Assembly (NCBI GenBank): GCA_937919825.1
Contig: CALFPA010000132.1
Coordinates: 1-64,000 of the forward strand
Source: an uncultured Spartobacteria bacterium
Lineage (GTDB): Bacteria > Verrucomicrobiota > Verrucomicrobiia > Chthoniobacterales > Terrimicrobiaceae
Direction of reading: 5' to 3'
DNA length: 64,000 nt
Each line of letters starts with the position of its first letter. Position 1 is the stretch's first letter. A program made the position numbers and the translations under genes. This document shows positions 487 through 64,000 of the stretch, piece after piece. The notes beneath the pieces are model-generated. The model saw only the letters and a program-made list of their open reading frames with translations, made no database searches and was not told the origin of the DNA.

Positions 487-526
487 TGACAAAAAACGAT
501 CAATTTTTGTCATAATTCGAGAAGAC
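487..526 (+). promoter_or_regulatory. Candidate operator/promoter element, copy 1 (palindrome)
   Basis: The element contains perfect 9-bp inverted arms, TGACAAAAA (487-495) and TTTTTGTCA (504-512), separated by 8 bp. It continues into a conserved tail ending GAGAAGAC. A second 40-bp copy with the same length and 33 of 40 identical bases is at 58871-58910, before another operon. It lies 104 bp upstream of the sulfatase ATG at 616. Binding by a repressor or activator is inferred; the protein is not identified. Confidence 0.5.
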
Positions 527-615
527 AGCAAGGTGGCTGTTTGTTTAGATTTAAATCGATTGCGCTTGTCCCGCTTCCAACCGCCACCTCTCTTCCAGCA
601 GCCGTTTTTAATTTT

Positions 616-2163
616 ATGAATAGAACCTCCACGCTTATCACTGCGGTCTGTGCCGCGTTTTCATTGATCCATCCGGCCAATGCCGCCGAGCCCACCGCGC
701 CGGCCAAGCCGAACATCCTCTTCATCATCACCGACGACCAGGGCTACGGCGACTGGAGCGTTAATGGTCATCCGCTGCTGAAGACGCCGAATGCCGACAA
801 ACTCGCTGCCGAGAGCGTGCGCCTTGAGAATTTCTATGTGAGCGCCTCGTGCTCTCCGACACGCGCGGCGCTGCTCACCGGCATGCATGAATTCCGCAGC
901 GGGGTCACGCACACGCAGCATCCCCGCGTGAGCCTCCCCCATGACACCACCACCCTGCCGGAACTGCTCATCACGGCGGGATACCGCACGGGCTTCGTCG
1001 GCAAGTGGCATCTTGGCCAACCCCCGTCGGGGCATGGCTTCGAGTGGTGCTCTTCCAACTTGGGCGGCCCCTTCGAGCACTTCGACCCGAACATGGTCCG
1101 CAATGGAAAGAAAACCAAAGAGATCGGATACCGCGAGGATATCTATTTCAACGACGCGATGAATTTCATCACGGAAACCAAGGACAAGCCATGGTTCATG
1201 TATCTCTCCACCTACTCGCCGCACGATCCGCTCAAAGCGCCCGAGGAGTTCGTGGCTCCTTTCCGTGGGAAGGTCACCGAGGAACAAGCCCAGTATCTCG
1301 GCATGGTCGCCAACCTTGATTACAATATCGGCCGCATCATGGCGTTTCTGAAAGAGAAGAACCTCGATGAAAATACTATCGTCGTGCTCATCTCCGACAA
1401 CGGCCAGACCTATGGCCTGGATGTCTACAATGCCAACATGCGCGGCTGCAAAGCGACGGTCTGGGAAGGCGGCCTGCGCAGCTTCTCCTACTGGCGCTGG
1501 ACCGGTCACTGGCCGCCCCATCAGGTGGATAATCTCAGCGCGCACATCGATGTCCTCCCGACCCTCTGCGCGGCGGCAGGCGCCAAGATCCCCGAGGCTC
1601 TCCAACCGGAGATCGAAGGATTCAACCTCCTGCCCGTTCTCGAATCCAAAGACCCCATCGCCTGGCATGACGACCGCTTCCTTTACCACCATGTGGCCCG
1701 CTGGCCGGGAGGCATGGCCGCCGATCATAAATACGCCATGGCCGGAGCGCGGCAGGGGAACTACCTCCTCTTGCGCAGTCGGCCCTGCGACAATCCGGGC
1801 TGCGAGGAGGCGAATGGCCAGCAATGCGACACCCTGCGGAGCGTCGAGGCAGGAAGCAAACGGGCTGGTTACACGGCGGAAAATGCCCAATTTCACTGGG
1901 GCGTGACTCCTCCCGGACGCTGGGCTCTCTTCGAGGTGAAAAAAGACCCCGGCTGCATGAACGATCTCGCGGCCGCCGAACCCGAACGCGTGAAGGCGAT
2001 GGGCGCGGCCTATGACAAATGGTGGGATGCCACCTACCCTGTGATGGTCAAGCGCGGCGGAGATGCCGAGATCGTCTGGAGCAAGGTCCAAACCGATTTG
2101 ATAAACAAGAAAAAGGCCGCCAAAGCCGCCAAAGCAGAACAAGAGAAAAAAGCCGACCAGTAA
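616..2163 (+). CDS. Secreted type I sulfatase (arylsulfatase A-like, S1)
   Basis: Predicted exported sulfate-ester hydrolase of the alkaline-phosphatase-like fold. ATG at 616 is preferred over an upstream in-frame TTG at 541 because it opens a clean signal peptide (MNRTSTLITAVCAAFSLIHP, cleavage near NAA). The metal-binding start PNILFIITDDQGYGDW follows. The formylglycine site is C79-S-P-T-R, then AALLTG; GKWHLG and a SDNGQT metal motif are also present. The C-terminus is Lys/Ala rich. It is a close paralogue of the partial sulfatase at 62753. It is followed 24 bp later by another sulfatase, so probably co-transcribed. The substrate position on the glycan is not deducible. Confidence 0.9.
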   Translation: MNRTSTLITAVCAAFSLIHPANAAEPTAPAKPNILFIITDDQGYGDWSVNGHPLLKTPNADKLAAESVRLENFYVSASCSPTRAALLTGMHEFRSGVTHTQHPRVSLPHDTTTLPELLITAGYRTGFVGKWHLGQPPSGHGFEWCSSNLGGPFEHFDPNMVRNGKKTKEIGYREDIYFNDAMNFITETKDKPWFMYLSTYSPHDPLKAPEEFVAPFRGKVTEEQAQYLGMVANLDYNIGRIMAFLKEKNLDENTIVVLISDNGQTYGLDVYNANMRGCKATVWEGGLRSFSYWRWTGHWPPHQVDNLSAHIDVLPTLCAAAGAKIPEALQPEIEGFNLLPVLESKDPIAWHDDRFLYHHVARWPGGMAADHKYAMAGARQGNYLLLRSRPCDNPGCEEANGQQCDTLRSVEAGSKRAGYTAENAQFHWGVTPPGRWALFEVKKDPGCMNDLAAAEPERVKAMGAAYDKWWDATYPVMVKRGGDAEIVWSKVQTDLINKKKAAKAAKAEQEKKADQ

Positions 2164-9588: not shown

Positions 9589-10458
9589 GTGAAAATCGCA
9601 CTACTTACCCTCTGTATCGGCGTCTCCAGCTTGTCTCTCGCTCAGAACGCCCAAACGGCAACCGCCTCGAAACTTATGATCGTCGCCCACCGGGGGTCTT
9701 CCGCACAGGCTCCAGAAAATACCCTGCCCGCCTTCCAACTGGCTTGGAAGCAAGGTGCCGATGCCATCGAGGGCGACTTCCAGTTGACCAAGGACGGGCA
9801 CATCGTGTGTTTCCATGACAAGGACACGAAGCGCGTCGATGGCCAGCAACTCGCCATCGCCGACGCCACCTTGGAGGAGTTGCGTCAACTCGATGTGGGC
9901 AGCATTCAGCCCCAAAACTCTGAGCGCGCCCTCCGCGCCTGGAGCAGCGACCAATACAAAGGCGTCCAGATGCCGACGATTGCCGAAGTTTTCGCCACCG
10001 TGCCTGCGGGAAAGAAAATCTTCATCGAAATCAAGTGCGGGCCCGAAATCATCGATCCTCTCCTGCGTGAACTCGCCTCCAGCGGATTGACCCCCGATCA
10101 GGTCGTGGTCATTGGCTTCGATAGCGCGTTGCTCAAATCCCTGAAAGATCGCGATCCGAAATGGCAGGTTGCCTGGCTTTGCTCCTTCGACAAAAAACCC
10201 AACGGCAAGCCCCGCATGGCCCCGGCCAGAGTCCTGAAAACCTTAAAGGCCATGCGCGCCCTCGCCCTCATGTCCGGCAGAGGGGATGTGGATAAGGGTC
10301 TGCTCGATCAAATGCGAGCCGCCGGCATCGAGCACTATGTCTGGACGATCAACGATCCCAAACTCGGCCCCACCTACAAGGCCCAAGGCGTGGACGCGAT
10401 CATTACCGATCTGCCCGCAGAAATGCGCGCCGCTTTAGTCGCATCGACCAACCCATGA
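9589..10458 (+). CDS. Secreted glycerophosphodiester phosphodiesterase-like protein (GDPD)
   Basis: A 289-aa TIM-barrel phosphodiesterase family member starting at GTG 9589 with a purine-rich upstream stretch (GAGAG). The signal peptide ends near SLAQ. Family motifs are visible: H34-R-G, ENTLPAF, DAIEGDFQLTKDG, HD (FHDKDTKR), EIKCG, and a C-terminal VWTINDP..DAIITDLP. The known reaction is hydrolysis of glycerophosphodiesters. Its place in a sulfatase/GH run suggests it could act on a phosphodiester or related substituent of the target glycan; that is inference. It overlaps the next gene by 4 bp (ATGA), so translational coupling is likely. Confidence 0.88.
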   Translation: MKIALLTLCIGVSSLSLAQNAQTATASKLMIVAHRGSSAQAPENTLPAFQLAWKQGADAIEGDFQLTKDGHIVCFHDKDTKRVDGQQLAIADATLEELRQLDVGSIQPQNSERALRAWSSDQYKGVQMPTIAEVFATVPAGKKIFIEIKCGPEIIDPLLRELASSGLTPDQVVVIGFDSALLKSLKDRDPKWQVAWLCSFDKKPNGKPRMAPARVLKTLKAMRALALMSGRGDVDKGLLDQMRAAGIEHYVWTINDPKLGPTYKAQGVDAIITDLPAEMRAALVASTNP

Positions 10459-12677
10459 TTAAAAAAACCATCTCCATAGCGCTGGCGATCGCTTCGGCCG
10501 CAACTCTGGCCACAGCGAAAGACTACCCTGTCGGAGCTGACCACCCGCTGAAAACCATCTCGGCGGCGGCGGAACTCGCGCAGCCGGGTGATACCGTCAT
10601 TGTCCACGAGGGCATCTACCGCGAGGAGGTCAACCCACCGCGTGGGGGCACCTCCGACGCCGAGCGCATCGTTTACACGGCCGCGCCGGGCGCGAAGGTC
10701 GCCATCAAAGGCTCGGAACCCGTCAAGGGCTGGACTCGTGTGCAAAACGACACTTGGAAAGTCACGCTACCGAATAGCTTTTTCGGCAATTTCAATCCCT
10801 ACGCCGACCTGATCCGTGGGAATTGGTTCCAACCCAATGGCCGCACCCACCACACGGGGGCAGTTTACATTGATGGGCACTGGCTCATGGAGGCCCCCAA
10901 TAAAGACATAGTGCTCAAGCCGGCGGGAACGACATTGATAAGCAAGGCCCAGCCCGGTGCCAAGCTCTTGAACCTCGCCTGGCTGCAGCCGGTGGGAAAT
11001 CCCAACGGCAAGGTCCTGGCGATCTCCGCCAAGGGGCGCAAAGGAACACAGGATGTGCCTGCAGGCGAACTCGGGCAGGTTGTTGGCCGCATCAGAAACG
11101 GAAACTGGTTGGAATTCGCGGGGGTTGATTGCGGAAGCGAAAGCTACGAACTCGCCTTCCATGTCGCCTCGGGGGACTCCTTCCGAATGGAAATTCGGAA
11201 AGACAACATCGACGGCGCGGTTTTGGGCACTGCCATCATCCCGGCCACGGGTGGTTGGAATCAGTGGAAAACCGTGAAAGTGGGCACCGATGTCCTGAGC
11301 GGGGTGAACAACTTTGCGGTGGTCTTCAAAAACGACGATACGAAGAACGCGGAAGAGGTGTTCAATTACAAGGGCCTGTATGAATCCTGCCTCTGGTTCG
11401 GCGAGGTGGACGACAAGAACACGACGATTTACGCCCAGTTCAAGGATCTCGATCCGAACACACGCGACACCGAGATCAATGTGCGGCAGGCGGTTTTTTA
11501 TCCTCGCAAACCCGGACGCAATTACATCACCGTGAGTGGCTTCACCATGATGCACGCTGCGACCAACTGGGCGCCCCCGACGGCCGAGCAGGTCGGGTTG
11601 ATCGGCACGCACTGGAGCAAGGGGTGGATCATCGAAAACAACACGATCAGCCACTCAAAATGCGTGGGGATCACTCTCGGCAAATACGGCGATGAATGGG
11701 ACAACAAGGCTGCGACGGCTAACGCCTACAATGAAACCATCGAGCGCGCGATGAAGAAGGGTTGGAACAAGGAGACCGTCGGTAGCCATGTGGTGCGGAA
11801 AAACAAAGTCTCTCACTGCGAGCAGGCCGGCATCGTGGGCAGCCTCGGGTGCATTTTCAGCACGCTGGAGGGCAACGAATTTCGCCATATCCACACGCAC
11901 AAGCTCTTCAGCGGAGCGGAAACGGCCGCGATCAAATTCCACGCGCCGATCGATATGGTGATCAAGGACAACCTGGTCCGCCAATCGGGAGGCTACGGGA
12001 TACTTTGGTTGGACTGGATGGCGCAGGGAACGAGGGTTTCCGGGAACCTCTTCTTCGACAACCTCAACCAGAATGTGTTTATGGAGGTCAATCACGGCCC
12101 TTATCTGCTGGATAATAACATTTTCTTGGGAACAGCCTTGAGGAATTGGTCCCAAGGCGGAGCGTATTGCTACAACATCCTGCCCGGCGCGATCACCGTG
12201 GATCCGCAGACACGGGAGACCCCCTACCACCGTCCGCAATCTACCGAAGTGCTGGGACTCTCCAGCATCGCCGGCGGGGACGACCGGTATCTCAACAACC
12301 TGATGACGCAGCCGAACGCCTTCGCCTCGATCAAAAAAACAATCAAGAACATGGTCTTGGAAGGCAACCAGCCGGTGCAATCCGCCAAGATCCTCGAGAA
12401 GGACGACGGGATTTACCTTTCGTTCGAATTGCCGGAAATGGAGCCGACACAACCTGTCACTGCCGAACGCCTCGGCAAAACGCTCGTTTCAAAAACCACC
12501 TTTGCGAACCCGGACGGCACGCCGATGAAGATCGACACCGATTACTTCGGCAAGCCCCGCGACCCGGCAAATCCCGGAGCCGGCCCCTTCGCCGGGCTCA
12601 AACCAGGAAAACACGAGATCAAGGTCTGGCCGAAAGAACTCAGGTCGCCCGCGAATGGCGCGAATCGCCGCGAATGA
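10455..12677 (+). CDS. Secreted parallel beta-helix protein with inserted CBM6-like domain
   Basis: A 740-aa exported protein with signal peptide MIKKTISIALAIASAATLAT. Residues about 25-140 form the start of a right-handed beta-helix (KTISAAAELAQPGDTVIVHEG, REEVNPPRGG, PNSFFGNFNPY). Residues about 200-300 look like an inserted CBM6-type module (VGRIRNGNWLEFAGVDCG..WNQWKTVKVG). The rest returns to beta-helix repeats (WIIENNTISHSKCVGITLGKYGDEWDN, GNLFFDNLNQNVFMEVNHGP). The family is often annotated DUF1565/right-handed beta-helix and is probably a polysaccharide-cleaving enzyme; catalytic residues are not assigned. A paralogue is at 58943. Confidence 0.8.
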   Translation: MIKKTISIALAIASAATLATAKDYPVGADHPLKTISAAAELAQPGDTVIVHEGIYREEVNPPRGGTSDAERIVYTAAPGAKVAIKGSEPVKGWTRVQNDTWKVTLPNSFFGNFNPYADLIRGNWFQPNGRTHHTGAVYIDGHWLMEAPNKDIVLKPAGTTLISKAQPGAKLLNLAWLQPVGNPNGKVLAISAKGRKGTQDVPAGELGQVVGRIRNGNWLEFAGVDCGSESYELAFHVASGDSFRMEIRKDNIDGAVLGTAIIPATGGWNQWKTVKVGTDVLSGVNNFAVVFKNDDTKNAEEVFNYKGLYESCLWFGEVDDKNTTIYAQFKDLDPNTRDTEINVRQAVFYPRKPGRNYITVSGFTMMHAATNWAPPTAEQVGLIGTHWSKGWIIENNTISHSKCVGITLGKYGDEWDNKAATANAYNETIERAMKKGWNKETVGSHVVRKNKVSHCEQAGIVGSLGCIFSTLEGNEFRHIHTHKLFSGAETAAIKFHAPIDMVIKDNLVRQSGGYGILWLDWMAQGTRVSGNLFFDNLNQNVFMEVNHGPYLLDNNIFLGTALRNWSQGGAYCYNILPGAITVDPQTRETPYHRPQSTEVLGLSSIAGGDDRYLNNLMTQPNAFASIKKTIKNMVLEGNQPVQSAKILEKDDGIYLSFELPEMEPTQPVTAERLGKTLVSKTTFANPDGTPMKIDTDYFGKPRDPANPGAGPFAGLKPGKHEIKVWPKELRSPANGANRRE

Positions 12678-21080: not shown

Positions 21081-21552
21081 AAAAAAGACGCCCGCGAATG
21101 ACGCGAATGGACGCGAATGGGGAAGGAAAACAAACTGGAGGGCTGACCGCCGTGTCGGCCCAAGCTTCAGCCGCGAACGCGGCGACAGAGTTCAACCGTG
21201 AATCCGAAGAAAATCCCCGCGAATGAAAGACAAAGTTTTCAGTTTTCCATCGCCCCCAATGGTAGGGTCTGCTCGCCGAGCGGACCCAAGATTCAGGCGC
21301 GAAGCGCCGTCCCGACCGTCAAAGACACAACCCCGCGAATGTCGCAAATAAACGCGAATAAAAGCCGCCCCCGGGAGCGCCGACGTCCCCGTCGGCCCTG
21401 CCCCTCAAGGAGGGTTGGGCGTCCCGCCCACCAAGTTGGATCAATGTGGGCGAGACGCGCCACGCTCCATGAGACGGCGCGGTCGCGCCTGAAGTTTGGG
21501 ACCCCTCGGCGAGGCGTCCCTGCCATTTATTTTCGATGGGCGCTGCCGCGCA
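21081..21552. repeat. Composite intergenic direct repeat, copy 1
   Basis: About 475 bp nearly identical to 27964-28441. Inside it are CGCGAATGACGCGAATGG arrays, a GGGTCTGCTCGCCGAGCGGACCC hairpin and GGGCGTCCCGCCCACCAAG. The two copies are in the same orientation and bracket the GH29, chimeric sulfatase and DUF5703 genes. No coding sequence is supported. Confidence 0.85.
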
Positions 21553-27963: not shown

Positions 27964-28441
27964 CAAAAGACACCCGCGAATGGCGCGAATAACCGCGAAT
28001 GGGGAAGGAAAACAAACTGGAGGACTGACGGCCGTGTCGGCCCAAGCTCCAGCCGCGAACGCGGCTTCAGAGTTCAACTGCAAATCCGAAGAAAATCCCC
28101 GCGAATGAAAGACAAAGTTTTCAGGTTTCAGCTTTCCATCGCCCCCAATGGTAGGGTCGGCTCGCCGAGCGGATCCAAGATTCAGGCGCGCAGCGCCGTC
28201 CCGACCGTCAAAGACACAAGCCCGCGAATGACGCAAATAAACGCGAATAAAAGCCGCCCCCGGGAGCGCCGACATCCCCGTCAGCCCTGCCCCTCAAGGA
28301 GGGTTGGGCGTCCCGCCCACCAAGTTGGATCAATGTGGGCGAGACGCACCACGCTCCATGAGACGGCGCCGTCGCGCCTGAATCTTGGGACCCCTCGGCG
28401 AGGCGTCCCTACCATTTATTTTCGATGGGCGCTGCCGCGCC
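27964..28441. repeat. Composite intergenic direct repeat, copy 2
   Basis: Near-identical to 21081-21552, with a small insertion (GGTTTCAGC) and scattered substitutions. The remainder of 27906-28543 is also non-coding: 27906-27945 is a small hairpin-like repeat, and 28451-28527 contains an imperfect inverted CGCGAAT-type array (GCGAATAAGCGTGAATGAAG against TTCTTATTCGCGTGGATTCG). Confidence 0.85.
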
Positions 28442-49720: not shown

Positions 49721-50014
49721 CTTGGAAAGGCGCTGCGAGCAAGCCTCCAATTCCTCATCGGAGAGGTTATCTTTTGTTTTTCGAGTGTCGAAAAAATACA
49801 AAAAATAAACGATAAAATACAAGACGGTTTTCGGTGATGGGTTATTTCTATAAGTGTTTTCCAAGCCTTCAAGTCCGCACTGTCCTAGTCCGAACCCATC
49901 CAATGATTGATCCCCAAATACCAAACAAGAAGCGCCAATCGCCGTCATTGAGCCTGTGCCTGTCTGCGTTTGATTTCTCCACGGAGTATACCCAAGCGGG
50001 AACGAATCTTTAAT

Positions 50015-50944
50015 ATGACAAAGATCGAGGACCTGAAGCTTCGTGGAAAATATGGCGGGTTTCTTTTCCTTGCGGATCCTGCGCGGGGCATTCCTTGGTT
50101 AAAGACCCACCAGCATGCGGAACTTGAGATCAATGTGGTTGCTCGAGGGTCCGTGACCTATGTCGTCGGCAAGAGCAGTTACACATTTTACCAGGGGGAA
50201 TGCTTCTGGCTTTTTCCTAGCCAGTCTCACCGCTGCATCGATCGCACGCCGGATGCGCTCTACTATGTCGTTTCATTCAAGCCTGCATTGATCGCTCGCA
50301 GTTGCCGGCAAGAAGATAATGCCATTCTTAAAAAAAGCCGTCCGCCCAAAAATGCTGTCCTGCATACGCTCTTACCTCCGGCCAAGTTCAGCTTGATCCG
50401 GGGCATCATGGACTCGCTGATCCAGGAGGGGCTAGATTCCGACACATTGAACCGCGAAGTCGGCTACGGTCTATCCCCTGGGTTTCGCTACGAGCACTCC
50501 AAACCCGATATGCTGAATTCAGGCCTCGCGCTCATTCTTCAGATGGCTTGGGATTGTCAAAAGGCCTCCGCGATGGAGCCGCGAGCCAACCTTTTGCACC
50601 CTGCCGTCTTGAAGGCTCTGGATATTTTAAAAAAGGAATCCGAATTCGATTGCCTCAAAAAAATGGCACGGGAGTGTGGCGTCAGTGCCGCCTATCTGAG
50701 CCGCACATTCAACAAGCAGATCGGTGTGCCGATTAATCGCTACCGGAATACGATGCGCCTCGAGCGTTTTTTGGAAATCAGGAATCGGGCGGCTCATCAC
50801 ATGACGCTCTCCGAGATGGTTTATGAGGCCGGGTTTGGCAGCTACGCACAATTCTCAAAATTGCATCACGCCAATTTCGGCTGTTGTCCCAAGGAAATCG
50901 ACAGGATACTCGCGTCCCCCAATCCTGCTCGTCGTCATTCCTGA
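50015..50944 (+). CDS. AraC-family transcriptional regulator
   Basis: A 309-aa cytoplasmic regulator. ATG 50015 is preferred to an upstream TTG at 49970. The N-terminal cupin-like sensor has HQHAELEINVVARGSVTYVV and FYQGECFWLFPSQSHRCID, as in sugar-responsive AraC proteins. The C-terminal double HTH spans residues about 195-300 (LKKMARECGVSAAYLSRTFN, LSEMVYEAGFGSYAQFSKLH). It is the only transcription factor in the window and directly precedes the GH2-SGNH gene (41 bp), so it probably controls this operon and perhaps the whole locus. Confidence 0.9.
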   Translation: MTKIEDLKLRGKYGGFLFLADPARGIPWLKTHQHAELEINVVARGSVTYVVGKSSYTFYQGECFWLFPSQSHRCIDRTPDALYYVVSFKPALIARSCRQEDNAILKKSRPPKNAVLHTLLPPAKFSLIRGIMDSLIQEGLDSDTLNREVGYGLSPGFRYEHSKPDMLNSGLALILQMAWDCQKASAMEPRANLLHPAVLKALDILKKESEFDCLKKMARECGVSAAYLSRTFNKQIGVPINRYRNTMRLERFLEIRNRAAHHMTLSEMVYEAGFGSYAQFSKLHHANFGCCPKEIDRILASPNPARRHS

Positions 50945-58870: not shown

Positions 58871-58910
58871 TGACAAAAAACGATAACAATTTGTCATCAA
58901 TTGAGAAGAC
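58871..58910 (+). promoter_or_regulatory. Candidate operator/promoter element, copy 2
   Basis: TGACAAAAAACGATAACAAT continues to TTTGTCATCAATTGAGAAGA and C. Arms TGACAAA (58871-58877) and TTTGTCA (58890-58896) form a 26-bp palindrome with the same outer spacing as copy 1 at 487-512. It lies 33-72 bp upstream of the beta-helix gene ATG (58943). Confidence 0.5.
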
Positions 58911-58942
58911 ACCGGAGTGAGTTGTTGCAATCATTTCCTCCT

Positions 58943-61294
58943 ATGTTCCGCCACCTTCTTGCTCTTCTCTGCGCTTCGACATTGCTGGGCCTTTCATCGT
59001 GCGCGCCAGCAACCCAAAATCTTGCTTCTGACGCGAGCGCCTCGAAGCTGCCTGAACCCAAGCGGCCCGAGTCGACGCCACTTAAAAAAAATCCGGTAAC
59101 GGCTCGCGTCACCGCAGACATCCATGTCTCGCCGTCCGGCAATGATGCAAGCGATGGTTCTTCAGGCAGTCCGCTGAAAACAATTCAGGCCGCTGCGAAC
59201 AAGGCCCAACCTGGCGACACGGTCACCGTGCACGCGGGCACCTACCGCGAGGAGATCAACCCGCCGCGCGGAGGGGTGGAGAGCCAGCCAATCGTCTTTC
59301 AAGCGGCTCCGGGGGAGAAAGTCGTGGTCAAGGGTTCGGAGATCGTCACCGGTTGGAAAAAACTCGAGGGGGATGTCTGGGAGTTGACCTTGCCGAATTC
59401 TTTTTTCGGAAAATTCAATCCCTATAGTGACCTCATCAAGGGTGATTGGTATGAGGCGCGGCAGAAATACCACACGGGGGCCGTGTATTTGAACGGACAC
59501 TGGCTGACGCAGGCTGCGAGCAAGTCCATCGTGGTCGGCAAGGACAATGCGGATCAAGGGCCGGAGGAGTTGATGAATATCCTCTCCCTGCAGGTGCCGG
59601 GCCAGAAGCCCGTGATGGCGGTGAAGCGGTCGAAACAGAGTAGCGATGCCGCCGTGGTCGAAGTGCCGGGTGGCAAGCCTTGCCTCGGGCGGTTGAAGGA
59701 TGGCGACTGGCTGGAGTTCGACGCGGTGGATTTCGGCGAGAAGGGCGGGAAGCTGATCTTGAATGCGGGCTCCCCGAACAATGGAGGCATTGTCGAAGTC
59801 CGCGAGGGATCTGTGGACGGGCGATTGTTGGGCAAATTTCTGGTCGCGATCACGGCGGAGTGGACCCATTTCCAAGGCTTCAGGACACCGATCGAGACGC
59901 CCCTCTCGGGAACGCAAAAAATCTTTTTGGTTTTCAAGGCCTACCCGCAAAAGCCCGTGAATAAGGGCGCGCCGGGTTTTTGGTTCGCGGAAGTGGATGA
60001 CAAAAACACAACCATCGTGGCCCAGTTCAAGGGCGTGGATCCGAACAAGGAGCAAGTCGAAATCAATGTGCGGCAGGCGGTGTTCTATCCGCGCCAGACC
60101 GGGCGGAATTACATCACCGTGCGCGGCTTCACGCTCGAGCAGGCTGCCACGCCGTGGGCTCCCCCGACCGCCGAGCAGATCGGCCTCATCGGCACAAACT
60201 GGTCCAAGGGTTGGATCATCGAAAACAACACGGTGCAATACTCCACCTGCACTGGCATCACGCTCGGAAAGCATGGCGACGAGTTCGACAACACCAAGGA
60301 CTACCGTCGCGCCATTCCCATCGCTGTGGAGAAATTCGGTTGGAAGCGCGGGAACATCGGCCACCACCTGGTCCGCAACAACCACATTCAGCATTGCGGG
60401 CAAGCGGGCATCGTCGGAAGCCTGGGGGGCGCGTTCTCGGAGATTCGCGGCAATGAAATCCACGAGATCCGGCAAAACCACGAATACGGTGGGTGTGAAA
60501 CAGCTGGCATCAAGCTGCACGGCGCCGTGGACACCCTCATCGCCGACAACCACATTTACCGGTGCGAGCACTGGGGCGGCATCTGGATCGACTGGATGGG
60601 GCAAGGCGTGCGCGTCACCGGAAACCTTCTTCACGACAACAGCCAGGACCTCATGTTCGAGGTCAACCTCGGGCCGCATGTGGTGGACAACAACCTGATG
60701 CTGTCCAAATCGCGGGTCACCGAGGCCAGTTCCGGCGGGGCTTATGTGAACAACCTCTGGACCGACGCCATCACGATCTGGACGGACATCGCGCACCGCA
60801 CCACGCCGTTCTTCAAGCCGCACAGCCTCGACATCATCGACAACGCGGCCGTGGATCAAAACGACGACCATTTCTACAACAACCTTTTCGTCGGTCCCAA
60901 AGGCCTCTCCGCCTATGACCAATTCCAATTAAAAATCAAGGCGGCCGGAAATGTTTACCTAAACGGCGCGCGGCCCTCTGCGGGTGACACCGACGCCGTG
61001 GTGGCCAAAGAATTCAATCCCGAGATCAAACTCACGAAAGAAGACGGGCAGTGGTGGCTGGAGATGCAGGTCGATCCGGCCTGGATGACCGCGCCCAACC
61101 GCCCGGTGGTGAACTCCGCCCTTCTCGGCAAGGCCTCCATCTCCGGCGCCCCTTTCGCCAACCGCGATGGAACTCCACTGTTGATCGACACCGATTACTT
61201 CGGCTACAAGCGTGCCGCAAATAACCCCGCCCCCGGACCGTTCGCTTGGGATGGAAAATCCACCATCCGCGCCAAGGTTTGGCCGAAAAATTAA
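58943..61294 (+). CDS. Parallel beta-helix lipoprotein with inserted CBM6-like domain
   Basis: A 783-aa paralogue of the protein at 10455. ATG 58943 begins a lipoprotein signal (LLALLCASTLLGLSSCAP), so unlike its paralogue it is probably lipid-anchored; a linker rich in Ser/Pro/Lys follows. Beta-helix start: ADIHVSPSGNDASDGSSGSP, REEINPPRGG, PNSFFGKFNPYSDLIKGDW. The CBM6-like insertion is at about LGRLKDGDWLEFDAVDFGEK. Later helix turns include WIIENNTVQYSTCTGITLGK. It is likely a glycan-cleaving or glycan-binding surface protein; catalytic residues are not assigned. It is followed by the MFS transporter. Confidence 0.8.
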   Translation: MFRHLLALLCASTLLGLSSCAPATQNLASDASASKLPEPKRPESTPLKKNPVTARVTADIHVSPSGNDASDGSSGSPLKTIQAAANKAQPGDTVTVHAGTYREEINPPRGGVESQPIVFQAAPGEKVVVKGSEIVTGWKKLEGDVWELTLPNSFFGKFNPYSDLIKGDWYEARQKYHTGAVYLNGHWLTQAASKSIVVGKDNADQGPEELMNILSLQVPGQKPVMAVKRSKQSSDAAVVEVPGGKPCLGRLKDGDWLEFDAVDFGEKGGKLILNAGSPNNGGIVEVREGSVDGRLLGKFLVAITAEWTHFQGFRTPIETPLSGTQKIFLVFKAYPQKPVNKGAPGFWFAEVDDKNTTIVAQFKGVDPNKEQVEINVRQAVFYPRQTGRNYITVRGFTLEQAATPWAPPTAEQIGLIGTNWSKGWIIENNTVQYSTCTGITLGKHGDEFDNTKDYRRAIPIAVEKFGWKRGNIGHHLVRNNHIQHCGQAGIVGSLGGAFSEIRGNEIHEIRQNHEYGGCETAGIKLHGAVDTLIADNHIYRCEHWGGIWIDWMGQGVRVTGNLLHDNSQDLMFEVNLGPHVVDNNLMLSKSRVTEASSGGAYVNNLWTDAITIWTDIAHRTTPFFKPHSLDIIDNAAVDQNDDHFYNNLFVGPKGLSAYDQFQLKIKAAGNVYLNGARPSAGDTDAVVAKEFNPEIKLTKEDGQWWLEMQVDPAWMTAPNRPVVNSALLGKASISGAPFANRDGTPLLIDTDYFGYKRAANNPAPGPFAWDGKSTIRAKVWPKN

Positions 61295-61344
61295 GTTTCC
61301 TGATTTTAGTTCAGCCCAACCAACAAACGCACCACACCCCATCA

Positions 61345-62742
61345 ATGAAAAAAGACACCACCAACACAGGATTCGTATTCCTAATCAGCCTTGTCGCCAC
61401 GATTGGCGGCTTCTTGTTTGGCTTCGACAGCGGAGTCATCAACGGCACGGTCGATGGCCTCAAACTCGCCTTCAATTCAGACAGTGTCGCCACGGGATTC
61501 AATGTCGCCTCGATGCTCTTGGGGTGCGGCGTCGGTGCGTTCTTCGCCGGAACCTTGGCTGATAAAATCGGGCGCCGTGCGATCCTGATCATCTCGGCCG
61601 TTTTATTCATCATCAGCGCATGGGGTTCAGGGATCGCGACGGGATCGGCGGAATTCATCGTCTACCGGGTCATCGGTGGTTTTGCGGTTGGTGCCGCAAG
61701 CGTGATCGCGCCGGCCTACATCAGCGAAGTCGCTCCCGCGAAATATCGGGGCACGCTGTCCTCGATCCAGCAGATCGCGATTATTTCCGGCCTCTTCTGC
61801 GCCTTTCTTAACAACTATGTGATCGCGGAAGTTTCCGGGGGATCCACGCAAATGTTCGCCTGGGGCTACGAGGCCTGGCGCTGGATGTTCTGGATCGAGT
61901 TGGCTCCGGCATTTCTTTTCCTCTTCGCACTTTTTATCATCCCTGAAAGCCCGCGTTTTCTGGTCGCCAGCGGGAAAAACGATCAAGCCCTTGCCGTGCT
62001 GAAGCACCTGATGGGAGAGAGCGCCGGCGAAAAACTTGGTGAGATTCAAGCCTCGCTGGCCGGCGATAACCACCGCCCGAGGCTCCGCGACATCCTCGAC
62101 CCCAAACTCGGCATTCGCCCGATCGTGTGGGTGGGCGTGTGGCTTGCCGCCTTTCAACAACTCGTGGGCATCAATGTCGTTTTCTACTACGGCGCCGTGC
62201 TGTGGCAGGCCGCAGGATTTACCGAGGCCCACGCCCTCCTCATCAATGTCGTCAGCGGTGGCGTGAGCATTGCCGCCTGCCTTGTGGCCACCTTCCTGGT
62301 GGACCGCGTCGGTCGCAAGCCGCTCCTGTTGATTGGATCGATTGGCATGGCCATCACCCTGGGAATTGTGGCGGTGGTGTTCTCGACGGGCGCCCTCGGT
62401 GAAAATGGCAATCTGAAGCTCAGCGACAACGCTGGCCTCGTCGCTCTCATCGCAGCAAATCTGTATGTGGTTTTCTTCAACGCCTCTTGGGGTCCCGTGA
62501 TGTGGATCATGCTTGGCGAAATGTTCCCGAACCAAATCCGTGGGTCGGGCCTCGCCGTCAGCGGCCTCTCGCAATGGGTCACCAATTTCGGGATCACAAT
62601 GATGTTCCCGATCATGCTCACCAGCATCGGCCTCGGTGGTGCCTATGGCATCTACGGTTTCTTCGCCCTCATTTCCGCGTTCTTCGTTCTCAAATACACC
62701 CGCGAAACCAAGGGGCTCGAGCTCGAGGATATGCAGGGCTGA
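61345..62742 (+). CDS. Sugar-porter MFS transporter (XylE/GLUT-like)
   Basis: A 465-aa inner-membrane transporter with 12 predicted helices; ATG 61345 aligns with family starts. Sugar-porter signatures: GGFLFGFDSGVINGTV in helix 1, ADKIGRRAILI between helices 2 and 3, PESPRFLVASGK after helix 6, FQQLVGINVVFYYG in helix 7, VDRVGRKPLLLIG and the final RETKGLELEDM. It imports a monosaccharide, probably by proton symport; the substrate is unknown but likely a product of the locus. It lies 11 bp before the last sulfatase. Confidence 0.92.
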   Translation: MKKDTTNTGFVFLISLVATIGGFLFGFDSGVINGTVDGLKLAFNSDSVATGFNVASMLLGCGVGAFFAGTLADKIGRRAILIISAVLFIISAWGSGIATGSAEFIVYRVIGGFAVGAASVIAPAYISEVAPAKYRGTLSSIQQIAIISGLFCAFLNNYVIAEVSGGSTQMFAWGYEAWRWMFWIELAPAFLFLFALFIIPESPRFLVASGKNDQALAVLKHLMGESAGEKLGEIQASLAGDNHRPRLRDILDPKLGIRPIVWVGVWLAAFQQLVGINVVFYYGAVLWQAAGFTEAHALLINVVSGGVSIAACLVATFLVDRVGRKPLLLIGSIGMAITLGIVAVVFSTGALGENGNLKLSDNAGLVALIAANLYVVFFNASWGPVMWIMLGEMFPNQIRGSGLAVSGLSQWVTNFGITMMFPIMLTSIGLGGAYGIYGFFALISAFFVLKYTRETKGLELEDMQG

Positions 62743-62752
62743 CTTCATTCTT

Positions 62753-64000
62753 ATGAAAAAAAACATCCTGCTACTAGCTGCGGCCTGCACCGCACTTTCC
62801 TCGATCCATCCCTGCGCGGCCGCCGACTCCGCCAAGCCGAATATCTTGTTCATCCTCACCGATGACCAGGGCTACGGTGATTGGAGCATCAATGGCCACC
62901 CCTTGCTGAAGACGCCAAATGTGGACCGCCTCGCCAAGGAGAGCGTGCGGTTGGAGAATTTCTATGTGAGTCCCTCGTGCTCGCCCACGCGGGCGGCGTT
63001 GCTCACTGGAATGCACGAGTTCCGGAGCGGTGTGACCCACACCCAAGTGCCCCGTGAGGAACTCTGGAAAGGCGCGACCACCGTGCAGGATCTCCTCGCC
63101 ACGGCAGGATATCGCAACGGATGGATCGGCAAATGGCATCTCAGTAACAAAAAGGGATTCAACCCTGGGGAGCGTGGTTTCGAGTGGTGCTCAACCAACG
63201 AGGGAGGTCCCCGTGAGCACTTCGACCCCGTCATGATCCGCAACGGAAAGAAGGAAAAAGTCCCGGGCTACCGCGAGGATGTCTATTTCAATGACGCGAT
63301 GGATTTCATCTCGGAGACAAAAGACAAGCCCTGGTTCCTCGGTCTCTCCACCTACTCGCCGCACGATCCGCTCGATGCGCCTGAGGAGTTCGTCGCGCCC
63401 TTTCGCGGGAAGGTCACCGACGAGGAGGCCAAGTATCTCGGGATGGTCGCGAACCTCGACTACAACATCGGCCGCCTCATGGCGTTTCTGAAAGAAAAGA
63501 AACTCGATAAAAAAACCATCGTGATTCTCATGTCGGACAACGGGCAAACCTGGGGCCTTGATGTCTACAACGCCAACATGCGCGGCTGCAAAGCCACTGT
63601 TTGGCAAGGCGGGTCCCGCACCTTTTCCTACTGGCGCTGGAAAGGGCACTGGCCCGCACACCAAGTCGACAACCTCACCGCGCATCTGGATTTCCTGCCG
63701 ACGCTCTGCGCGGTGGCGGGTGTGAAGATTCCTGAAAAACTCCAACCGCAACTCGAGGGTTTCAGCCTCTTGCCGGTCCTTGAATCCAAGGCCCCGATCG
63801 CCTGGCATGACGACCGCATTCTTTACCACCATGTCGCCCGCTGGCCCGGAGGCATGGCGGCCGACCACAAGTATGCGATGGCCGGAGTCCGGCAGGGCAA
63901 TTACCTCCTCGTGAGCAGTCGTCCCTGTGAAAACCCGAAATGCAATTTGGATTCCCATGGCGACCAATGTGAAACCCTCCGGAGTGTGGAGAAGGGGAGC
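62753..64000 (+). CDS. Secreted type I sulfatase, partial (runs off window end)
   Basis: 416 codons are visible with no stop before the window edge. The signal peptide is MKKNILLLAAACTALSSIHP. It parallels the sulfatase at 616 throughout: NILFILTDDQGYGDWSINGH, formylglycine C76-S-P-T-R, YNANMRGCKATVWQGGSRTF, YHHVARWPGGMAADHKYAMA. It is the fourth clear paralogue relationship linking the two ends of the window. It follows the MFS gene by 11 bp, indicating co-transcription. Confidence 0.9.
   Translation, partial: MKKNILLLAAACTALSSIHPCAAADSAKPNILFILTDDQGYGDWSINGHPLLKTPNVDRLAKESVRLENFYVSPSCSPTRAALLTGMHEFRSGVTHTQVPREELWKGATTVQDLLATAGYRNGWIGKWHLSNKKGFNPGERGFEWCSTNEGGPREHFDPVMIRNGKKEKVPGYREDVYFNDAMDFISETKDKPWFLGLSTYSPHDPLDAPEEFVAPFRGKVTDEEAKYLGMVANLDYNIGRLMAFLKEKKLDKKTIVILMSDNGQTWGLDVYNANMRGCKATVWQGGSRTFSYWRWKGHWPAHQVDNLTAHLDFLPTLCAVAGVKIPEKLQPQLEGFSLLPVLESKAPIAWHDDRILYHHVARWPGGMAADHKYAMAGVRQGNYLLVSSRPCENPKCNLDSHGDQCETLRSVEKGS

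Follow-up and report, generated by a model that had tools for sequence, protein, structure and literature searches.

The window, by which we mean the whole 64,000-nucleotide stretch of DNA analysed here, contains two intergenic 40-bp elements, one ahead of a run of sulfatase genes and the other ahead of an operon encoding a beta-helix protein, an MFS transporter and a sulfatase. The two copies are identical at 33 of 40 bases, and their positions and downstream genes are as described in an earlier note on this DNA. The same note regarded the neighbouring sequences as unrelated, which holds except that each element is followed, 18-19 bp on, by a -10-like hexamer. A gene for an AraC-family regulator lies between the two copies. 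The features are:

487 to 526, forward strand: putative operator, copy 1; 40 bp, sequence TGACAAAAAACGATCAATTTTTGTCATAATTCGAGAAGAC, half-sites at 487-503 and 508-524, rough model E value 1e-15
522 to 527, forward strand: -35-like hexamer AAGACA, overlapping the promoter-proximal half-site of copy 1 and placed by its spacing to the -10
546 to 551, forward strand: -10-like hexamer TAGATT, 19 bp past the end of copy 1
616 to 2163, forward strand: sulfatase (PF00884), first gene after copy 1; the site also precedes its orthologues in genomes G009, G013, G007 and G010
50015 to 50944, forward strand: AraC-family regulator (cupin AraC_binding plus HTH_18), the proposed binder of both elements
58871 to 58910, forward strand: putative operator, copy 2; 40 bp, sequence TGACAAAAAACGATAACAATTTGTCATCAATTGAGAAGAC, half-sites at 58871-58887 and 58892-58908, rough model E value 7e-13
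58906 to 58911, forward strand: -35-like hexamer AAGACA, overlapping the proximal half-site of copy 2 and likewise placed by spacing
58929 to 58934, forward strand: -10-like hexamer AATCAT, 18 bp past the end of copy 2
58943 to 61294, forward strand: beta-helix protein with a GH120-type insertion domain and CBM6, first gene after copy 2; homologues with the site in G009, G013 and G236
61246 to 62742, forward strand: MFS sugar transporter ORF (PF00083), in the operon of copy 2
62636 to 64000, forward strand: ORF reaching the window end and continuing to 64294, paralogous to the 616-2163 sulfatase with 75-81% DNA identity over two blocks

Scored with a matrix of the element family, the two copies reach 57.3 (487-526) and 53.3 (58871-58910), against 3.3 for the runner-up elsewhere in the window and a top score of 8.6 over 20 simulated windows. 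The genome holds four copies in total, the two outside the window being on the reverse strand at C81:1391-1430 and at C61:741-780, where the tail is spelled GAGCAGAC. Blind pattern searches at the level of the genus recovered four additional sites in G009 plus single sites in G004 and G013, and a model search identified further sites in G007, G010, G012 and G013. The string that the earlier note had suggested searching for, TGACAAA-N12-TTTGTCA, proved a poor probe: it ignores the conserved tail and misses most diverged sites, and with three mismatches allowed it matched 135 places, mostly weakly or by chance, compared with 29 for a reversed control that lacks equivalent palindromic character. 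A 40-bp matrix and a 68-bp model were used in its place.

The sulfatase is the first gene after the site in five genomes (that of the window, G009, G013, G007 and G010), and the beta-helix GH120-like protein is first in three genomes of the window's genus and in G236, which belongs to another family. The C81 site precedes a large autotransporter-repeat surface protein, and its near-identical G009 counterpart stands before a protein that weakly matches Verru_Chthon cassette A. The C61 site lies ahead of a secreted protein without a Pfam match that has phosphoesterases and a GH29 fucosidase as neighbours. In other parts of the class, the site is partnered by a desaturase-Rieske protein (with an additional NqrF-like reductase domain in G004), an MtaA/CmuA-like URO-D protein, an aldose epimerase or a PhyH dioxygenase. 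Sister species have orthologous sulfatase and beta-helix targets. Targets differ between lineages, so that what is conserved is the pairing of regulator and operator and not any single pathway. The window also encodes GH95, GH29, GH43, GH106 and FGE, a set consistent with sulfated fucose- or rhamnose-rich glycans, for which gene clusters of a similar kind have been described in freshwater Verrucomicrobia (PMC5615132).

The ORF at 49970-50944, in which the regulator is encoded, has a C-terminal double helix-turn-helix of the AraC type (PF12833 HTH_18, E 1.3e-12; PF00165, E 1.8e-9) and an N-terminal cupin of the sugar-binding, carbohydrate-responsive type (PF02311 AraC_binding, E 7.9e-8). NCBIfam gave it no named identity (AraC, RhaS or others), all matches being far under cut-off. 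Orthologues of this gene, here called araC, are present in seven genomes of the family, including the window's own. G004 has a site about 70 bp behind its araC gene, and clear sites were found near the orthologues in G007, G010, G019, G022 and G012 when the surrounding DNA was scanned with a matrix trained solely on ten sites that had been found without reference to araC. Within the family, the site occurs in 7 of 7 genomes with araC and in 2 of 19 without it (Fisher p 5e-5). No orthologue was found in the site-bearing MAGs G009 and G013, which are fragmented and 86-87% complete.

We extended the comparison to 384 genomes of the class, using thresholds of E <=1e-50 for araC and E <=1e-4 for the site. 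The gene was found in 17 genomes, the site in 12 and both in 11 (Fisher p 3e-16), in a search that was not fully independent because some of the genomes had supplied training sites. In the twelfth site-bearing genome, G316, the site abuts an AraC-type gene at its start, and this gene is more diverged. Inspection of the six remaining araC genomes gave a candidate site in every one; four of these score at least 24, and the weak ones are in G137 (16.7) and G293 (9.7, located 267 bp upstream of araC and before a desaturase). A DNA pattern scan of about 85,000 genomes, which made no use of the araC sequence although the pattern drew partly on five sites found beside araC, returned 49 hits. Nine of them have a good araC orthologue within the fetched DNA, and all nine come from Verrucomicrobiota. 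The non-verrucomicrobial hits, none of which has such an orthologue and which score low without an adjoining araC, were discarded as chance. For an Akkermansiaceae MAG in which the site is alone on a short contig, the orthologue was present elsewhere in the genome (78% identical). A peptide-pattern search for the AraC protein in the genome contigs found no match, the patterns being too strict for orthologues that do exist.

The outer end of the element is separated from the araC start codon by only 1-3 bp in 18 lineages, and the encoded protein begins with the conserved M/V-L-E-D/N-L-K or nearly so. This divergent arrangement has been lost in the window's genome, where nearly 8 kb separates araC from the nearest site, and the assignment of the regulator there consequently rests on orthology. 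The earlier note had proposed a shared operator and left the choice between the AraC protein at 50015 and a regulator outside the window. Orthologous sites before orthologous genes, together with the co-occurrence of the regulator, support a shared operator of one regulon, and co-occurrence and adjacency select the AraC protein. Judged from these comparisons, the 40-bp element is very probably a switch with which the AraC-type protein encoded between the two copies activates genes for degrading sulfated sugars, and many related bacteria have it next to the same regulator gene.

The palindrome described in the earlier note, TGACAAA-N12-TTTGTCA with a 26-bp span, is present without mismatch in both window copies. 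It is not the whole architecture, however, since it is weaker in relatives and a direct repeat of 21-bp period, which takes in the tail, explains more. The best reading is a pair of direct half-sites, approximately (T)GWCA-N6-GAKMA, whose starts are 21 bp, or two helical turns, apart. Conservation over 35 sites is strongest at CAAAA (4-8), A10, GA (12-13), A16, a T-run at about 20-22, C25 and GAGAAGA (33-39); in the direct-repeat reading, CA...GA..A is found again 21 bp on. Direct-repeat identity is maximal at offset 21 both in the training sites (51%, compared with <=38% at other offsets) and in an independent set (45%, compared with <=35%), so that both sets show the two direct half-sites about 21 bp apart of a class II AraC/XylS operator. 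Inverted symmetry also rises above background at one centre, the highest of all those tested (63% training, 50% independent), and the two readings overlap at TGWCA, which is its own complement. The inverted repeat weakens in diverged sites, and the GAGAAGAC tail, which lies outside it, is accounted for by the direct repeat only. In the C81 copy, TGACAAAAAACGAGCAG-TTTT-TGACATCAAACGAGAAG-AC, the palindrome is broken and the direct repeat is kept.

The -10-like hexamer stands at a fixed distance from the element. The mean -10 score in 19 training sites is maximal at offset 18 past the element (2.09, next best -2.54), a value matched in 0 of 1,000 shuffles with one base of slack either way, and the same offset gave 1.80 (next -1.16; 0 of 2,000 shuffles) in 16 sites outside model training. 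Most sites have their -10 at +18 and a proximal half-site overlapping the -35, as in class II AraC/XylS promoters, with the -35 placed by spacing only. A 17-bp spacer puts it at element positions 36-41, AAGACN, which has GAC in common with TTGACA; with this spacer, the GAGAAGAC tail thus both closes the proximal half-site and serves as a weak -35. The region showed no strong promoter of the activator-independent kind.

Taken together, the sites, their spacing, the fixed -10, the orthologous targets, and the co-occurrence and adjacency of araC are evidence at the level of sequence, from which we infer that the protein binds, that it activates and does not repress, and what induces it. We put at roughly 85% the probability that the AraC/XylS-family regulator at 50015-50944 has the 40-bp element as its operator and acts as a class II activator at direct half-sites. 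A regulator dimer would occupy the two head-to-tail half-sites, the downstream one overlapping the poor -35 by way of its tail with the -10 18 bp on, and from there would bring RNA polymerase to the promoter in class II fashion. The trigger is probably a sugar breakdown product that fills the cupin domain. The regulon in this genome would comprise the sulfatase run (487), the beta-helix/MFS/sulfatase operon (58871), the C61 secreted protein and the C81 surface protein.

The perfect inverted repeat in both window copies, and the pre-eminence of its centre among those tested, could instead reflect a palindromic operator for a symmetric dimer of the LacI, GntR or TetR type encoded outside the window, with the link to AraC incidental. 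We regard this as quite improbable. Such an operator leaves unexplained both the tail, which is as conserved as the palindrome, and the presence of the same AraC gene 1-3 bp away in 18 lineages; diverged sites retain little of the palindrome, which TGACA in the second half breaks (C81, G009 C581 and G004), and the self-complementarity of TGWCA together with the A- and T-runs inflates its apparent strength.

If the AraC protein is the binder, the sites could still serve to repress the downstream genes, or be bound sequentially with a loop, rather than act as class II activator sites. The element would cover the -35 region either way, and AraC itself is both a repressor and an activator. However, a poor -35 and a fixed -10 distance are expected of activator-dependent promoters, and few members of the AraC family are repressors only, which makes this reading unlikely. 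It is more improbable still that the two copies share no regulation and are merely left over from a mobile repeat or a promoter duplication. The two operons do hold paralogues (the sulfatases at 616 and ~62636, the beta-helix proteins at 10455 and 58943), but the genes adjoining the copies come from different families, the flanks are unrelated, and orthologous sites with a fixed -10 are retained across the class.

Where its start codon touches the element, we predict that araC is leaderless and self-repressed: its own -10 (TATTTT) would lie inside the distal half-site, so that protein binding would silence the gene. In 9 of 18 lineages the hexamer from 12 to 7 bases ahead of the araC start reads exactly TATTTT, and in the others it is mostly T-rich. 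The T at position 9, which makes TATTTT on the opposite strand, is present in 6 of 6 divergent sites but in 1 of the 13 others used for training (p 3e-4, with phylogeny as a confounder). Transcript starts are predicted some 7 nt past the -10, near 558 for copy 1 and near 58941 for copy 2, where the start falls nearly at the ATG of 58943; there and at the divergent araC loci, predicted starts are at, or a few bases from, start codons, which suggests leaderless transcripts in this lineage.

A broader and more tentative possibility is a class-wide module that has been re-targeted, in which araC is leaderless, one element activates the target operon and shuts off araC, and the inducer may be a methylated deoxy-sugar. 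The usual partners, a desaturase-Rieske(-NqrF-like reductase) oxygenase, an MtaA/CmuA-like methyltransferase-family protein and a PhyH dioxygenase, could all strip methyl or similar groups, hence the suggested inducer. In the window's genus, re-targeting would have been to sulfatases, the beta-helix CAZyme and surface proteins.

The proposed system resembles characterized ones. E. coli AraC has a cupin and an AraC-type helix-turn-helix and, at the class II araBAD promoter, direct half-sites (araI1-I2) two helical turns apart with the proximal one at -35; in this system the regulator gene is often divergently transcribed. The window protein and its sites share this domain make-up, half-site spacing, position at -35 and often divergent regulator gene, but differ in half-site sequence, in that we identified no distant O2 looping site, and in the protein's score against the NCBIfam AraC model (24.4 bits, cut-off 208). 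At the Pm promoter of the Pseudomonas putida TOL plasmid, XylS binds direct repeats TGCA-N6-GGNTA, the second of which overlaps the -35 by two bases (PMC4225500). The layout here is the same, with GWCA-N6-GAKMA and a predicted -35 overlap of about two bases. It is set apart by its motif letters, its A/T-rich core and its targets (sugar degradation here, aromatics for XylS), and by the araC start codon, which touches the element in most relatives. CphR of Rhodococcus combines a XylS-type layout with a divergently transcribed regulator (PMC6205950).

Verrucomicrobiota encode very many sulfatases and CAZymes, and a literature search of limited scope found no paper on how these genes are turned on. 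The type of regulator and operator is already known; the comparative support for this pair in Verrucomicrobiota is, at the sequence level, unusually strong. A defined regulator, DNA site and promoter geometry predict transcript starts and make the control circuit directly testable, and a simple model search allows the regulon to be listed for any genome of the class. One regulator-operator pair appears to have been retained while its target genes were swapped.

Several minor observations concern the regulator's surroundings and repeats in the window. The window's genome encodes, at C133:47732-50008 (L145), a desaturase-Rieske-NqrF fusion orthologous (69%) to the regulator's partner in G004 and G012; no site was found at this gene. 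In front of the window araC, about 190 bp upstream of its start, 49786-49825 is a tandem repeat of 21-bp period (CGAAAAAATACAA / CGATAAAATACAAG) that may be a decayed autoregulatory site or chance; its matrix score is at background and we do not claim it as an operator. Ahead of its own araC, G397 (L146) carries a site that is gapped and looks decayed. A GC-rich intergenic interspersed repeat (CGCGCCTGAAACTTGGGGCATCTCGGCGATCTGCCCCT and variants) occurs in the window at 103, 294, 12787, 21482, 28371, 49363 and 49578, and G007 has a stretch resembling it upstream of its araC (L042:920-970). The beta-helix GH120-like proteins at 10455-12677 and 58943-61294 are paralogous (77% in one block), and two intergenic stretches of about 460 bp, 21083-21533 and 27965-28422, are 92-95% identical, a recent duplication.
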